DNA from: an uncultured Prevotella sp.
GTDB taxonomy: Bacteria > Bacteroidota > Bacteroidia > Bacteroidales > Bacteroidaceae
Direction: 5' to 3'
Length of the DNA stretch: 33,019 bases
Assembly (NCBI GenBank): GCA_900315545.1
Contig: OMZM01000019.1
Span: 1-33,019 of the forward strand
Notes under the pieces: model-generated
What the model was told of the DNA's origin: nothing
Seen by the model: the letters and a program-made list of their open reading frames with translations, nothing else
Database searches by the model: none
In this document: positions 1 through 32,687 of the stretch, in pieces
Layout: each line of letters begins with the position of its first letter
How positions within the stretch are numbered: position 1 is the stretch's first letter
Program-made: the position numbers and the translations under genes

Positions 1-144
1 TTGTGTTTGGTCTGGAAATTAACAGATTTTTGCTATTTCAGGGGCTGTAAAATTTCTATTTGGAGAGTTTTTGTCTGTCAAAAGTTTTCATAAAATCGGA
101 GGGATAGGGAGAAAGCGCGAACAGTTTGGCACGGTTTTTGCAGG
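1..144 (+). repeat. Dispersed ~424-bp repeat, copy A (left-truncated)
   Basis: These bases match the last third of the repeats at 11401-11824 (reverse complement) and 27082-27505. Shared blocks are the ggaaattaac segment near the start, ctatttggagagtttttgtc (55-74) followed by tgtcaaaa, and tttggcacggtttttgcagg (125-144). The copy begins at the window edge, so its inverted-repeat core lies outside. The corresponding part of the copy at 27082-27505 is also about 144 nt, so no large indel has occurred. I see no convincing gene here. The reading frame from 71 to 289 is built from repeat sequence and the tandem repeats beyond it. Confidence 0.8.
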
Positions 145-183
145 GTGGAGATTTTATGGGAGGAAATATAGGAAATTAGAGGG

Positions 184-3824: not shown

Positions 3825-4736
3825 ATGAAACCAACATTATTATTATTGGCAGCCGGAATGGGTAGTCGTTACGGCGGACTGAAACAGCTTGACGGTGTTG
3901 GACCAAATGGAGAGACGATAATGGACTATTCCATATACGACGCCATCCAGTCGGGTTTTGGAAAGATAGTATTTGTTATCCGCAAGGATTTCGAACAAGA
4001 ATTTCGCGATAAAGTGCTGAGCAAATATGAAGGGCACATACCAACCGAGCTTGTTTTCCAGAGTATAGATGCACTACCTGAGGGCTTCACCTGTCCCGAA
4101 GGACGCGAGAAGCCATGGGGCACAAACCATGCTGTGCTGATGGCTAAGGATGTCATAAATGAGCCATTCCTTGCAATCAACTGCGATGACTTCTACGGTC
4201 GTGATGCCTTCAACGTAATGGGACGTTTCCTGTCTGGACTTGCAGACGGCAACGAAAACAGCTATGCCATGGTTGGTTTCCGCGTAGGAAACACGCTGTC
4301 GGAAAACGGCACCGTATCGCGCGGAGTATGTACAACCAATGCCGAAGGACATCTGACAACAGTCGTTGAGCGTACCAAGATAGCCCGCGTAGACGGCAAG
4401 GTAAGCTATAAGGATGAAAACGACGAGTGGGTCGTGATAGATGACAATACGCCAGTATCAATGAACATGTGGGGTTTCACTCCCGACTATTTCCGCTATA
4501 GCGAGAATTATTTCCGCGAATTTCTGTCGGACGAAAAGAACATGACAAACCTGAAGTCGGAATACTTCATTCCGCTGATGGTGAACAAACTCATAACAGA
4601 CGGTACTGCATCGGTAAGTGTACTCGACACAACGAGCAAGTGGTTTGGCGTTACTTATCCGGAGGACCGTCCGGAAACTGTTGCACGAATAAAGAAACTG
4701 GTTGAGGAAGGAGTTTACCCAAACAAACTGTTCTGA
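3825..4736 (+). CDS. Sugar-phosphate nucleotidyltransferase family protein
   Basis: This is a 303-residue cytoplasmic protein of the NTP-transferase (GT-A fold) family, whose members join a nucleotide to a sugar 1-phosphate or a related alcohol phosphate. The N-terminal LLLAAGMGSRYGGLKQLDGV is the classic nucleotide-binding loop (G-x-G-x-R ... K-Q). The metal-binding region is visible as FLAINCDDFYG around residue 123. Near the C-terminus, VLDTTSKWFGVTYPEDRP is the segment seen in this Bacteroidota subfamily. The start at 3825 is supported by the promoter and by the position of the loop. The gene stands alone and ends at a bidirectional terminator. The substrate cannot be read from the sequence. 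It is not GlmU-like, having no left-handed beta-helix domain. Confidence 0.8.
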   Translation: MKPTLLLLAAGMGSRYGGLKQLDGVGPNGETIMDYSIYDAIQSGFGKIVFVIRKDFEQEFRDKVLSKYEGHIPTELVFQSIDALPEGFTCPEGREKPWGTNHAVLMAKDVINEPFLAINCDDFYGRDAFNVMGRFLSGLADGNENSYAMVGFRVGNTLSENGTVSRGVCTTNAEGHLTTVVERTKIARVDGKVSYKDENDEWVVIDDNTPVSMNMWGFTPDYFRYSENYFREFLSDEKNMTNLKSEYFIPLMVNKLITDGTASVSVLDTTSKWFGVTYPEDRPETVARIKKLVEEGVYPNKLF

Positions 4737-4758
4737 AATCAAGTGCTGACAGAATAAG

Positions 4759-11400: not shown

Positions 11401-11824
11401 CCTGCAAAAACCGTGCCAAACTCGTCTGGATTTTCTTCAGAGACGAAAAAGTATGAAAATTTTTGACAGACAAAAACTCTCCAAATAGAATTGCAACAGC
11501 TGCTGAAAGTGCAAATTTGTGTTAATTTCCGAGCCGGATGTAATTGTTAAAAATGTCAAAGAGTATCTTTGAGGCTCCTATTTTGCATATTTGGGCTTGT
11601 TAGGCATAATGTTTAAGACCCTCAAACACTATGTCTGACCTCCTCAAACACACTGTTTGACAATCTCAAACATACTCTTTGACAATTTTAACACTTGTAT
11701 TTCCTGTGTGAAAGACGTATATTTTGTGATAATAAGCTGACTGTCAGACGAATACAGAGATGCGCGAAAAACGGGCATATTTTGCCCCTGCAATTTTCAA
11801 AACGACTTTCGTTGGCATTCTCGC
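11401..11824 (-). repeat. Dispersed ~424-bp repeat, copy B (complete)
   Basis: Reverse-complemented, this matches the copy at 27082-27505 over its whole length, and both are 424 nt. It opens with gcgagaatgcc, two variable bases and cgaaagtcgttttgaaaatt (complement of 11792-11824). It continues through the inverted-repeat core (11545-11693), then the ggaaattaac and ctatttggagagtttttgtc blocks shared with copy A, and closes with tttggcacggtttttgcagg. It fills most of the region between the prs promoter and the nspC promoter. I find no credible coding frame in it. Single-base divergence is frequent but length is conserved. Confidence 0.85.
11545..11693. repeat. Inverted-repeat core of repeat copy B
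   Basis: The 149-nt core starts tgttaaaaatgtcaaagagt and ends actctttgacaattttaaca, so its ends are near-perfect inverted repeats. On the minus strand it holds successive ~22-nt units of the form TTGTCAAA-N-TTTGAG, each itself a short palindrome. The whole core could fold into a long imperfect hairpin in RNA or extruded DNA. Confidence 0.8.
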
Positions 11825-11980
11825 GACAGTAAATGTGCAAAAAATGATTAACATCTGAAAGATGCAGCAGGACGAAAAATGTATGATAACGCTGTCTTGC
11901 CAACTTCTCAACAAGACTTAAATCTTGAAAATAATTAGTTATAATAATATAAATAGGTATAGAAATCATTTCAAATTGTT

Positions 11981-26979: not shown

Positions 26980-27081
26980 TTATTTTTTGAAGAAATAATG
27001 AAAAAACATGCAGGAAATATATAAATAATAGATAACCTTTACACATTAAAAATACTAATCAATTTTCGTTAGTTTACTGTT

Positions 27082-27505
27082 GCGAGAATGCCCGCGAAAG
27101 TCGTTTTGAAAATTAGAGGGGTAAAATACGCCTGTATTTTACCCTTTGTTGTAAGTTTTTGACAGTCAATCTGTTAACTCTGAATATAAGGCTTATGCAT
27201 ATAAATTGTATATGTTAAAATTGTCAAAGAGTATATTTGAGATTGTCAAACAGTGTGTTTGAGGATGTCAAACATAGTGTTTGCTACTTTCAGACGTAAC
27301 ATTTATCATGCCCAAATATACAAAATAGCCGCCTCAAACATACTCTTTGACATTTTTAACACTTATATTTGGTCTGGGAATTAACATAACTTTACACTTT
27401 CAGCGCTTGTTCCGCATCTATTTTGCAACTTTTTCCCTGTCAAAATTTTTCATCATTTTTCTCTCTCAAACAAAAATCCGTTCACTTTGGTACAGTTTTT
27501 GCTAC
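27082..27505 (+). repeat. Dispersed ~424-bp repeat, copy C (complete)
   Basis: This is the forward-oriented full copy, 424 nt like the one at 11401-11824. It opens with gcgagaatgcccgcgaaagt and tcgttttgaaaatt. Next comes an 11-bp hairpin (27119-27129 with 27134-27144), the inverted-repeat core (27213-27361), the gggaattaac block and a tail ending tttggtacagtttttgctac. It is more diverged from the other two copies in its last 100 nt. No convincing gene is present. A 114-codon frame from 27347 runs out of the repeat and matches nothing I know. Confidence 0.85.
27213..27361. repeat. Inverted-repeat core of repeat copy C
   Basis: The 149-nt core is bounded by tgttaaaattgtcaaagagt and actctttgacatttttaaca. 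Three 22-nt units follow one another: 27221-27242, 27243-27264 and 27265-27286. They share TGTCAAA, a 6-8 nt centre and GTTTG or ATTTGAG. The middle unit, ttgtcaaacagtgtgtttga followed by gg, is the best palindrome. The 149-nt length equals that of the core at 11545-11693. Confidence 0.8.
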
Positions 27506-28058: not shown

Positions 28059-29084
28059 ATGAAAAGGATGAAGAAACTATTACCAGTGCTCCTCATGAGC
28101 ATCATGTCCGTATCCGCCTTCGCAGAAGATGCAGTAATCGACGGAATAAAATACAGTTTGTACGACGAAACTTTAGAAGCAGAGGTTATTCAGAATGTTA
28201 TTCAATATTCCGGCGACATAACATTTCCCGAGAGCATATTCTGCAATAACAAGACATACAGGGTAACAAGTATCGGCAACAAAGCCTTCTATAAATGTGA
28301 TGCCTTGACATCAGTAATCATTCCCAATAGCGTAATAAGGCTTGATAATCGCGCTTTCGCCTATTGTTCTGCCTTGACATCAATAACTATTCCGAACAGC
28401 GTTACAACTATTGTTGGAAATGCCTTTTATGAGTGCACAGGCTTGTCAGAGATAACCATCCCAAGCAGCGTTACAAGCATTGGCGAAAATGCTTTCGGCT
28501 ATTGCACAGGTTTAGAATCAATTATTGTAGAAGATGGTAATACTGTTTATGACTCTCGTGATAACTGTAATGCCATTATAGAAACAGAAACAAATACTCT
28601 TATAGTAGGATTTAAGAATACTGTTATTCCAGTCAGTGTAACATCTATTGCAAGAGTTGCTTTCTCTGGTTGCTCGGGCTTGTCAGAGATAACCATTCCA
28701 AACAGCGTTACAAGCATCTCAGATTTTGCTTTCCATAACTGTGAAAGCCTGACTTCTGTAATATCTTTGATAGAAGAACCTTTTGAAATAAGCAGCAATG
28801 TTTTCGAGGTAGTTGATTTTACAACATTCACAACCAATTTTACCTCTGCCACTCTTCTAGTACCTGCCGGTACAAAGTCGAAGTATGAAAGCACATCGGC
28901 ATGGAACAAGTTTACAAACATTGTGGAAATGGAGTTGAACTCAGTTAAGTCAGCTCAGACTGACGTTACTGTTGAGGAAGTGGAACGCTACAACATCAGC
29001 GGACAGAGAATCAGTGCGACGCAGAAGGGCCTGAACATTGTGAAGATGAGTGATGGCACTACAAAGAAAGTAATGTTTAAATAG
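28059..29084 (+). CDS. BspA-like leucine-rich-repeat surface protein
   Basis: The protein has 341 residues with a signal peptide (LLPVLLMSIMSVSAFAED). Several LRR_5 repeats of about 23 residues follow, e.g. LTSITIPNSVTTIVGNAF and LSEITIPNSVTSISDFAF, the pattern of BspA-like proteins from oral and gut Bacteroidota that mediate adhesion or are simply exported. About 35 residues at the end (RYNISGQRISATQKGLNIVK, then MSDGTTKKVMFK) form a tail seen on many Prevotella exported proteins. It resembles a short type IX sorting or anchoring segment, though that role is inferred. An alternative start is the ATG at 28068. It is a single gene with a strong terminator. Confidence 0.87.
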   Translation: MKRMKKLLPVLLMSIMSVSAFAEDAVIDGIKYSLYDETLEAEVIQNVIQYSGDITFPESIFCNNKTYRVTSIGNKAFYKCDALTSVIIPNSVIRLDNRAFAYCSALTSITIPNSVTTIVGNAFYECTGLSEITIPSSVTSIGENAFGYCTGLESIIVEDGNTVYDSRDNCNAIIETETNTLIVGFKNTVIPVSVTSIARVAFSGCSGLSEITIPNSVTSISDFAFHNCESLTSVISLIEEPFEISSNVFEVVDFTTFTTNFTSATLLVPAGTKSKYESTSAWNKFTNIVEMELNSVKSAQTDVTVEEVERYNISGQRISATQKGLNIVKMSDGTTKKVMFK

Positions 29085-29206: not shown

Positions 29207-30346
29207 CTATCGTCTAATAGCCCTTAATAGCACACTCCTGCGTGAGTCGTTTCTCAACAGATTATGCAAAGATGCATCATCGGGCAAAGGTTTTCTTAAT
29301 ATTCTCTTTATAGTGTACTTGAATAGTTGCTTATATATACTTTTGAGATTGTATTCGTGAAATGTTTTGTCAATTATTGGCATTTCATGTTCTCTTGCCA
29401 ATCGTTTAAGTTCTTTGTTGAGTAACAAATCGTACTGCTCTTTGTCTTGTAAATATGCACAAAGATTATTATTATGCAACTCCCGTTCTTTCCGGTAGTC
29501 AATAGAAATCGCTAAGTTACCTTCGTTTTGGGTATTTATAGTCTTATAATCTAACTTGCCGTTTTCAATAGTAATCACCACGCATAGCCCCTCATACCAG
29601 TGAGGGCGATTCCATGCGCGATAGTCATAGCCTTTTTTACTGTTAAATAAGAAATTCCCAAGGCTATAATAGATAGGTTTCCCTTTATACGACTCCCATC
29701 CCTGAGGACAGTGTGGGTGTGTTCCTATCACGGCATCGGCTCCCCAGTCAATGAAGTCACGATAGCGGGCAATGATCTCTGGTAATGGGATGTCGATGTA
29801 TTCTATTCCATCATGTGGCAATACAAACAGGTAGTCTACTTGTTTCTTGGCATCCACTATAACATGATTCACTTTCTGGTCATTTATGTAGGCACATCCA
29901 AGTCCTTCATGATTGTAACAATCATCGAAAACACCTGTATAAGCTGCATAGCAGACTGCCATGAAACCTATTTTTATCCCATTTATATCAACTATCTTCA
30001 CTTGATATGCCTCATCATAAGTTCCAGCTCCGAATGCTGCTTCTCCAAAAGCCTGCTTTGTTTTCTTATAACCTTCATAGCCCCAGTCAAACGTATGGTT
30101 GGTTGCAATTGAAAAAAGATTGAAACCAATTGAACGAAGAAAATTTGGAGCGTCATCATGCTGATAGAAACGTTCTTGTCTTTGCCATGGAATATTTGTA
30201 TTTTCTGGCTTCAATGGAACTTCGAAATTCACAACTGAAAGATTACATGACTGAATCAATGCTTTCAATTCTTCTGAGACTGTGATTGATCGGGTTGAAG
30301 CCTTAGAACAGAAGTCTCCTGCAAATAACAAACATGTCTTATTCAT
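29207..30346 (-). CDS. CapA-family protein (capA2)
   Basis: This is a 379-residue protein of the CapA/PGA_cap family, which has a calcineurin-like metallophosphoesterase fold and is linked to poly-gamma-glutamate capsule synthesis in Bacillus. Expected metal and active-site motifs appear in order: FAGDF near the N-terminus, NFEVPL, ATNHTFDWGYEG, LPHDGIEY, GTHPHCPQGWE and YSLGNFLFN. There is no signal peptide or membrane helix, unlike the membrane-bound CapA of Bacillus, so it is probably cytoplasmic. It is the last gene of the operon, and its start overlaps the ATP-grasp stop by 8 nt. The substrate is unknown. It could act on an amide-linked surface polymer or its precursor. Confidence 0.85.
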   Translation of the reverse strand: MNKTCLLFAGDFCSKASTRSITVSEELKALIQSCNLSVVNFEVPLKPENTNIPWQRQERFYQHDDAPNFLRSIGFNLFSIATNHTFDWGYEGYKKTKQAFGEAAFGAGTYDEAYQVKIVDINGIKIGFMAVCYAAYTGVFDDCYNHEGLGCAYINDQKVNHVIVDAKKQVDYLFVLPHDGIEYIDIPLPEIIARYRDFIDWGADAVIGTHPHCPQGWESYKGKPIYYSLGNFLFNSKKGYDYRAWNRPHWYEGLCVVITIENGKLDYKTINTQNEGNLAISIDYRKERELHNNNLCAYLQDKEQYDLLLNKELKRLAREHEMPIIDKTFHEYNLKSIYKQLFKYTIKRILRKPLPDDASLHNLLRNDSRRSVLLRAIRR

Positions 30347-31616: not shown

Positions 31617-32687
31617 TTATATAAGTTTTCTTATTTTTCTAACACACTTAACTGCTACGTCAAATGTTTTGTATTTCATCATATTTTTGTTCTTCCATAA
31701 CTGAAATATTATTTCCTTTGGAATGTCAGAAAGACCTATTACGTTCTCTTCAGAAGAATGAATATAGCGAATAGTGGGCTTGATGGTCTTTTTATTTATT
31801 TTTAATTCTACTATACATCCATATCGTGAAATGGGATTCCATACTTGTTTTATCGGTTCTTCGATGGGATAAGGATAGCCAACAACATCCTTAACATGTT
31901 TAACTTCATCTAGTTTCTCTGGATACCAGATTGGTCTTGGGGGATACATATAAAAATCTGGGAAGAGGAAATTACCCATACTAAAACATATATAGCCTTC
32001 CCGCACTTTTATAAATGGCTGTACCTGATGCGGGTGGCTACCAAGCACTGCATCGGCACCGGCATAAATCATTCGTTTCGCCATTGTTATACATTCGGGC
32101 AATGGCTCAAAACGATATTCCCGTCCCCAATGTGGCATTACTATTACACGATCGTATTGCTTCTTTGCATGCTCAATATCATCCACTATTTTTTCAATAT
32201 CCAGTGGGTTTACTCCTGCCTTTTTATCTCCAGCCAATTCAACATATCCTAACCATTTGTTGCCATACATACAATATCCTAAAATGGCTATACTCAAACC
32301 GTCTTTAATGATAACTGCAGGCTTAGAGGCTTCGTCATAATCCATACCAGCCCCCATGTACTGTATATTATTATCCCTTAAGGTTTTTATTGTATTTATT
32401 AATCCTGCTTCTCCCAAATCCCAAACATGGTTGTTTGCCAATGAGACTATGTCAAATCCCATTTCCTTTATTCGGAAAAAATCTTCATTTCTTGCATATA
32501 CAATATTCTGCCTACCCTGCATTTTAACAGGATCATAAGCAAAGTTTGTTCCTACCGCAGCTTCAAGCGTTCCGATACGAAAGTCGAAACCTCTTAAATA
32601 CTCAAACAATTCAGGAGTTATATATTGATTCTGGTATGGTAGCACACCACCTGGCATAATATCGCCGACAAAGCACAATCTTGTCAT
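31617..32687 (-). CDS. CapA-family protein (capA1)
   Basis: The protein has 356 residues and is a second, diverged member of the CapA/PGA_cap family. Motifs are FVGDIMPGG at the N-terminus, GTLEAAVG, SLANNHVWDLGE, MPHWGREY, GSHPHQVQP and FSMGNFLFPD. These are the metal-binding positions of the metallophosphoesterase-like fold. There is no signal peptide. It is the first gene of a three-gene operon with the ATP-grasp and capA2 genes. The leader is about 150 nt if the TAnnTTTG at 32851-32858 is its promoter. The region is visibly AT-rich compared with nhaD or nspC, which fits accessory surface-polymer DNA. Confidence 0.87.
   Translation of the reverse strand: MTRLCFVGDIMPGGVLPYQNQYITPELFEYLRGFDFRIGTLEAAVGTNFAYDPVKMQGRQNIVYARNEDFFRIKEMGFDIVSLANNHVWDLGEAGLINTIKTLRDNNIQYMGAGMDYDEASKPAVIIKDGLSIAILGYCMYGNKWLGYVELAGDKKAGVNPLDIEKIVDDIEHAKKQYDRVIVMPHWGREYRFEPLPECITMAKRMIYAGADAVLGSHPHQVQPFIKVREGYICFSMGNFLFPDFYMYPPRPIWYPEKLDEVKHVKDVVGYPYPIEEPIKQVWNPISRYGCIVELKINKKTIKPTIRYIHSSEENVIGLSDIPKEIIFQLWKNKNMMKYKTFDVAVKCVRKIRKLI

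Follow-up and report, generated by a model that had tools for sequence, protein, structure and literature searches.

High-copy intergenic repeats are usually regarded as selfish leftovers. Short palindromic sites whose proteins are known – matS, the SlmA and Noc sites, and parS – are likewise spread over chromosomes. Among described repeats, the text on PINSR of Prevotella intermedia gives 177 and 184 copies of a 188 bp sequence in two Prevotella genomes, and portrays these copies as intergenic, imperfect, lineage-restricted, judged non-coding and without terminal inverted repeats (PMC4755523). REP sequences, which are said to differ between species and which go together with RAYT transposases, are organized in BIMEs that the source text presents as regularly spaced alternating palindromes (PMC2817692). 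The MITE BrickBuilt of Porphyromonas gingivalis is given in its source text as 19 copies with IS5-family, ISPg-like terminal inverted repeats (PMC4596501). Here we describe a 446-bp intergenic element that is copied over much of a Prevotella genome, and that we read – with a probability of about 0.42 – as a distributed docking array for a putative dedicated DNA-binding protein, kept under selection and probably organizing the chromosome.

The element came to light in a window of 33,019 nt (the whole stretch of DNA analysed), which is the entire contig C12 of an uncultured Prevotella genome (G000; 2.29 Mb, 56 contigs, 92% complete). The original prediction was that positions 11401-11824 (minus strand) and 27082-27505 (plus strand) align end to end with zero net length change, and that positions 1-144 (plus strand) match the last third of both. 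These alignments hold, and a repeat search of the window returns the first two segments as a 406-nt inverted repeat that is 76% complementary; the ends, however, were misplaced, the conserved 5' end (TAATCAATTTT) lying some 26 bp outside the segments first proposed. The features are as follows.

11405..11850, minus strand: copy A, full element TAATCA...TTTTTG, 446 bp (from the alignment)
27056..27501, plus strand: copy B, full element TAATCA...TTTTTG, 446 bp (from the alignment)
1..151, plus strand: copy C, 3' third only, cut by the start of contig C12 (from the alignment)
27225..27349, plus strand: palindrome array of copy B
11557..11681, minus strand: palindrome array of copy A
27486..27501, plus strand: 3' end block of copy B, TTTGGTACAGTTTTTG
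11405..11420, minus strand: 3' end block of copy A
125..140, plus strand: 3' end block of copy C
27056..27107, plus strand: conserved 5' block of copy B, TAATCAATTTT...GAATGCCCGCGAAAGTCGTTT
11799..11850, minus strand: conserved 5' block of copy A

Beyond copy A there is partial conservation for about 6 nt past the 3' end and weak conservation for about 20 nt past the 5' end. Copy C is incomplete because the contig starts there; over 147 nt it shares 98% identity with a copy found at a different contig end (L312), 97 of these 147 nt being a single exact word that may be assembly overlap. The three genomic contexts were correctly recognized at the outset: an NhaD-like transporter (TIGR00775, E 5e-52, yet below the family cut-off), the gap between ribose-phosphate diphosphokinase (prs) and nspC, and that between tRNA-Glu and a BspA-type leucine-rich repeat protein. 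The latter adjoins copy B at window positions 28059-29084 and has internal DNA repeats at 28319-28733; further along, two PGA_cap (capsule synthesis type) proteins (29207-30346 and 31617-32687) flank two additional ORFs on the minus strand. The NspC of this genome is 63-70% identical to the NspC of 80 named relatives, mostly Prevotella and other Prevotellaceae.

The three copies in 27 kb that had been proposed are real but are merely a local view of at least 144 places in 2.29 Mb. A 20-nt pattern from the 5' end matches the genome 138 times (4 for the reversed control) and the exact 3' end 127 times (0 for the control); the union of the match lists gives at least 142 places on 49 contigs, to which two more, found inside gaps, were added. 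BLAST with copy B, in which 40 of 167 candidates were scored, returned copy B itself and 39 others, all 74-80% identical. Of 125 copies first retrieved, 105 are full length and 20 incomplete; the alignment used below comprises 98 copies and omits the incomplete copies together with 7 full-length members of a TTACA subfamily. Pairwise identity in the alignment, flanks included, has a median of 72% and a maximum of 90%. Within the element, the nearest neighbours of 122 copies are at a median of 85% identity, with 24 copies at 90% or above and 4 at 94% or above. At contig ends there are two long pairs of copies with 94% identity, over 452 and 365 nt.

At least 18 contig ends of the genome fall within copies (for example C12:1, both ends of C8, C17:1, C18:1, C22:1, and the ends of C24 and C29), and several have exact words of 96-99 bp in common, part of which may be assembly overlap. 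The repeat breaks assemblies, and this explains part of the fragmentation of the genome. Given the shared exact words and the 94% pairs at contig ends, the most similar copies are probably under-assembled; near-identical copies, having broken the assembly, may be absent or cut.

The locus of copy A bears on the history of the element. Among the 80 named relatives, prs lies beside nspC in 35, and the element is present between them in none of the 35: the gap measures 140-236 bp in 8 and holds an intervening gene in 27. Copy A was therefore either gained by this lineage or lost elsewhere. The proposal that these sequences are copies of a defined element is borne out both by this locus, which lacks the element in 35/35 relatives, and by the two long pairs. 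In an uncultured Prevotellaceae, SI.A88 (L270, approximately 4667-4740), a separate 22-bp palindrome array lies a few hundred bases upstream of nspC.

Analysis of the organization of the element shows that the unit of the array, which occupies its center, is the palindrome CAAA-N7-TTTG, and that units are spaced by exact multiples of 22 bp. In copy B the units start at 27225, 27247, 27269, 27291 (weak, with 2 mismatches) and 27335, all offsets being multiples of 22 bp; in copy A they occupy 11667-11681, 11645-11659, 11623-11637 (1 mismatch) and 11557-11571, in the 22-bp register of copy B. Nine copies in the genome have the same ends and an unchanged register, with TTACA...TGTAA half-sites instead. 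Over the alignment 150 of 460 columns are conserved in at least 97 of the 98 copies, while 83 columns fall below 60%; conserved columns are clustered (runs z -11) into the 5' end, a CTGAcaGTCA block, the array, a TTCTATTT block, a CTGTCAAAA.TTTTCAT block and the 3' end, TTTGGCAC..TTTTTG. This 3' end is kept in the 98 aligned copies with 1-2 exceptions per column, and the next base is either C (71) or T (27). As originally predicted, the copies have no reading frame in common: taken frame by frame, the longest run without a stop codon has a median of 39-53 codons, and 1 of 105 copies reaches 100 codons in any frame. The aligned ends differ and by inspection form no terminal inverted repeat, and a scan for target-site duplications of 2-12 nt (a grid of offsets, 102 copies) found none, the best value being 0.32 against 0.25 expected. 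Membership of the MITEs was rejected on these two grounds.

The original prediction also raised the possibility that length or structure is under selection. The first part stands – 92 of the 102 copies having both ends measure 445-448 bp – and the second, taken as RNA structure, finds no support, pair changes being at the level of shuffled columns. The corresponding explanation, that the copies form a structured regulatory RNA family, could draw on the finding that copies A and B each fold better than their shuffles (z -5.4), which is expected of palindromes, and on one short helix (columns 350-379) with 8 two-sided changes compared to 3.6 in its shuffles. Over all 107 consensus pairs in the 98 copies there are, however, 45 two-sided changes compared to 38 (sd 7) after shuffling, and 44 of 300 shuffles attain this number; for the percentage paired, 90.6 against 90.4 after shuffling, 2 of 300 do, but the excess is very small. 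The long stem is invariant in sequence, and the alifold pairing of the inner 5' block (columns 43-56) with the 3' end (444-458) consists mostly of invariant and G-U pairs, without covariation. No copy matches Rfam at the gathering score. On fold, Rfam, consensus fold and pair counts the RNA explanation was rejected, and we give it hardly any credence.

Core sites were defined from copies other than the pair under test, and differences were counted in the 17 mutual-nearest pairs among 122 copies (all pairs 82-95% identical). Only 36 of 3014 core sites differ (1.2%), compared to 798 of 4174 non-core sites (19%): in the window's genome the core thus differs about 16 times less than the remainder of the element. 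The suggestion that old copies persist is therefore an incomplete account, the core being constrained even between nearest copies. Exchange between copies could inflate the non-core differences; an invariant core over about a hundred loci still requires selection or very recent turnover.

With respect to genes, the copies are intergenic: none of 125 lies inside a gene called by our own gene caller, and 2 of 125 extend over the edge of a called gene, by 5 and 98 bp. They favor gaps between operons. Flanking gene pairs are divergent in 34, convergent in 22 and tandem in 48 of 104 cases, as against 3, 3 and 17 in a comparison set of 23 window gene pairs picked by eye, and the median distance is 178 bp from gene starts vs 115 bp from gene ends. 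There is no preference of orientation relative to genes or to GC skew as a proxy of replication: the downstream gene is co-directional in 61 and opposite in 49 of 110 cases (P = 0.29), the upstream gene is co-directional in 54 and opposite in 65, and the GC skew of the flanks is positive at 67 of 134 copies, with a mean of -0.0002.

These counts bear on a further explanation, namely that the element is a portable sigma54 promoter whose 3' end is an outward-firing RpoN -24/-12 site and whose palindromes are activator sites. The family 3' end consensus resembles, by letters and spacing, the sigma54 -24/-12 site; TTTGGCAC..TTTTTG is near-invariant in the 98 copies, and the genome has RpoN and one strong activator gene. 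The resemblance is striking, but with only 61 of 110 downstream genes co-directional the gene context does not bear it out; furthermore T replaces the usual -12 C in 27 of 98 copies, and promoter use does not predict the exclusion over 6 kb described below. We regard this explanation as highly improbable.

The distances between copies were compared to a null model of uniform placement along contigs. Gaps shorter than 5 kb separate 3 of 95 neighboring pairs, compared to 31.7 expected (minimum 16 in 20,000 simulations), while gaps of 7-15.5 kb account for 61 of 95, compared to 27.6 expected (maximum 46). All three short gaps involve remnants: at L084 a truncated copy lies next to an intact one, L093 is itself truncated, and on C6 there is a 3' end alone. 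With these three remnants removed the smallest of 92 gaps is 6.26 kb. Relative orientation gives 2 gaps below 5 kb among 44 in the same direction and 1 among 49 in opposite directions. A hard core plus exponential fits the gaps (KS P = 0.60 and 0.41, the parameters being fitted to the same data) and a gamma distribution fits worse (P = 0.03): the spacing is avoidance without a visible upper limit, not strict periodicity. Stretches from five wide gaps of the genome were retrieved, and two contained further copies. Among four stretches of wide gap in which 4-6 proteins each were read, L332 is a glycosyltransferase cluster (5/5) and L329 is partly so (3/5); L333 and L334 hold ordinary genes, and the idea that wide gaps are foreign islands was rejected.

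Outside the window's genome a clear match to the element was found in one of 399 genomes (G005), and short weak matches in four others, with two candidates scored in each genome. The copy in G005 (contig C7, L032/L151) is single, cut short and 86% identical to the consensus over 174 nt; it lies directly after a gene whose end we take to be that of a hybrid-cluster protein, a gene absent among the retrieved copy loci of the window's genome. The array is more widespread. A two-unit array pattern matches 54 of 399 genomes, 45 of them with fewer than 10 hits; those with 10 or more are G000 (179), G132 (149), G409 (31), G306 (30), G158 (28), G204 (27), G314 (27), G347 (25) and G313 (10). Since the reversed control pattern also matches 20 of 399 genomes (three with 10 or more), low array counts mean little. 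The control, which amounts to GTTT-N7-AAAC pairs, has 59, 16 and 14 matches per strand in G263, G385 and G190, possibly CRISPR-type or other arrays. Arrays in G179 and other genomes have periods of 22-23 bp and linkers typical of the lineage; G179 has a AAACATATATGTTT dialect with 151 matches against 0 for the control, and the 7 other genomes searched alongside have none. Four loci compared in G132 are similar over the array alone. Among the matches listed, G179 has 0 of 71 gaps below 5 kb compared to 7.7 expected (P = 5e-5), and G132 has 1 of 28 below 7.5 kb compared to 9.0 expected (P = 3e-4), the exception being a gap of 1.3 kb. Mutual exclusion over roughly 5-8 kb is thus seen in three genomes with different array sequences.

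Dialects combined with spacing would suit a sequence spread and maintained by genetic exchange, for instance a signal for DNA uptake or recombination with a benefit that levels off over some 10 kb of transferred DNA; dialects of uptake sequences are described, in the source text, for Neisseriaceae (PMC3630211). Known uptake signals are, however, far shorter than the 446 bp copied here to new loci, and we consider this origin improbable.

A stronger competitor is that the element is mobile, selfish and non-autonomous, with a transposition machinery that binds the array and prevents insertion nearby, leaving the spacing as a by-product. Cis target immunity of this kind is known for Mu, Tn3 and Tn7, and the copies do avoid each other as immunity demands. 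The fit of the gaps to a hard core plus exponential, together with recent copying and the end blocks, favors a mobile element with immunity; so do remnants that do not exclude their neighbors, the two long pairs at 94%, the absence of the element between prs and nspC in all 35 relatives with that gene pair, and the patchy distribution over genomes. Yet there is no target-site duplication and, by inspection, no terminal inverted repeat, and PF01797 (Y1 transposase, the sole transposase family searched) is found neither in the window's genome nor in G179, although it matches 3 of 9 array-rich and 5 of 9 other genomes. Copy B has no match in phage or plasmid records, and two scans of viral contigs, with exact patterns only, gave none. 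The low core divergence of sister copies at different loci is unexpected for neutral insertions, and the four loci compared in G132 share the array alone, yet arrays there avoid each other. We judge this explanation unlikely, though well short of negligible.

The reading as a docking array is the one that we prefer. A helically phased (22 bp) palindrome array would provide sites for the putative dedicated protein between conserved end blocks; copies have come to occupy intergenic regions across much of the genome, where selection would keep them; and intact copies exclude one another within about 6 kb, so that most neighbors lie 7-20 kb apart. Bound arrays might act as anchors of loops or supercoil domains, or as nucleation sites of a spreading protein, and different Prevotella lineages would share this design while differing in array sequence. 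A host function is favored by the core constraint and by recurrence in three genomes, and the trait common to the dialects – a phased array with exclusion – favors a protein that covers or monitors several kb around each array. Several points speak against docking: the strong end blocks are more reminiscent of mobility signals, arrays are absent from most genomes of the genus, the exclusion has no visible upper limit and has the 1.3-kb exception in G132, and no cognate protein was found; a blastp comparison of 628 ORFs flanking arrays in 21 genomes (1-4 loci in most of them) gave no family of neighboring genes beside arrays in more than 3 genomes. We extend the argument to the genus only tentatively: Prevotella may possess a chromosome-scale docking-array system with lineage dialects and putative proteins of their own, located between operons, with distances of about 6 kb or more kept up by selection or by spreading of the bound protein. 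To our knowledge no matS, parS or BIME system is like it. The arrays are either a distributed chromosome-organizing system in a common genus or a mobile element that regulates its own spacing, the latter not seen in the literature searched; a docking system, if true, would give bacteria an equivalent of distributed domain anchors.

The nearest known element is PINSR, compared here by description only, its consensus being given in a figure. The original statement that no named Bacteroidota element has this sequence needs qualifying accordingly, a comparable named repeat having been described (PMC4755523). PINSR, at about one copy per 15-18 kb by our division, is high-copy, intergenic and without terminal inverted repeats, as is the present element; it differs in length (188 bp vs 446 bp), and the PINSR text reports neither an array nor spacing (PMC4755523). 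REP/BIME sequences share the many intergenic palindromes, but the palindromes here are of 15 bp, in a 22-bp register, with mutual exclusion over about 6 kb; assignment to the REP/BIME-RAYT systems was rejected for the window's genome and G179, neither having a Y1 transposase. BrickBuilt likewise comes from the Bacteroidota and contains internal tandem repeats (of 23 nt), but is described with 19 copies, terminal inverted repeats and another repeat sequence (PMC4596501). The open-licence literature searched gave no report of spaced palindrome arrays in Prevotella or of such spacing. With matS, parS and the SlmA and Noc sites the arrays have in common that palindromic sites are dispersed over the chromosome, binding being predicted here; those are short sites with known proteins, in contrast to a 446-bp element with an array. 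What is new against all of these is the occurrence of arrays with a period of 22-23 bp, in different dialects across the genus, and the mutual exclusion of copies.
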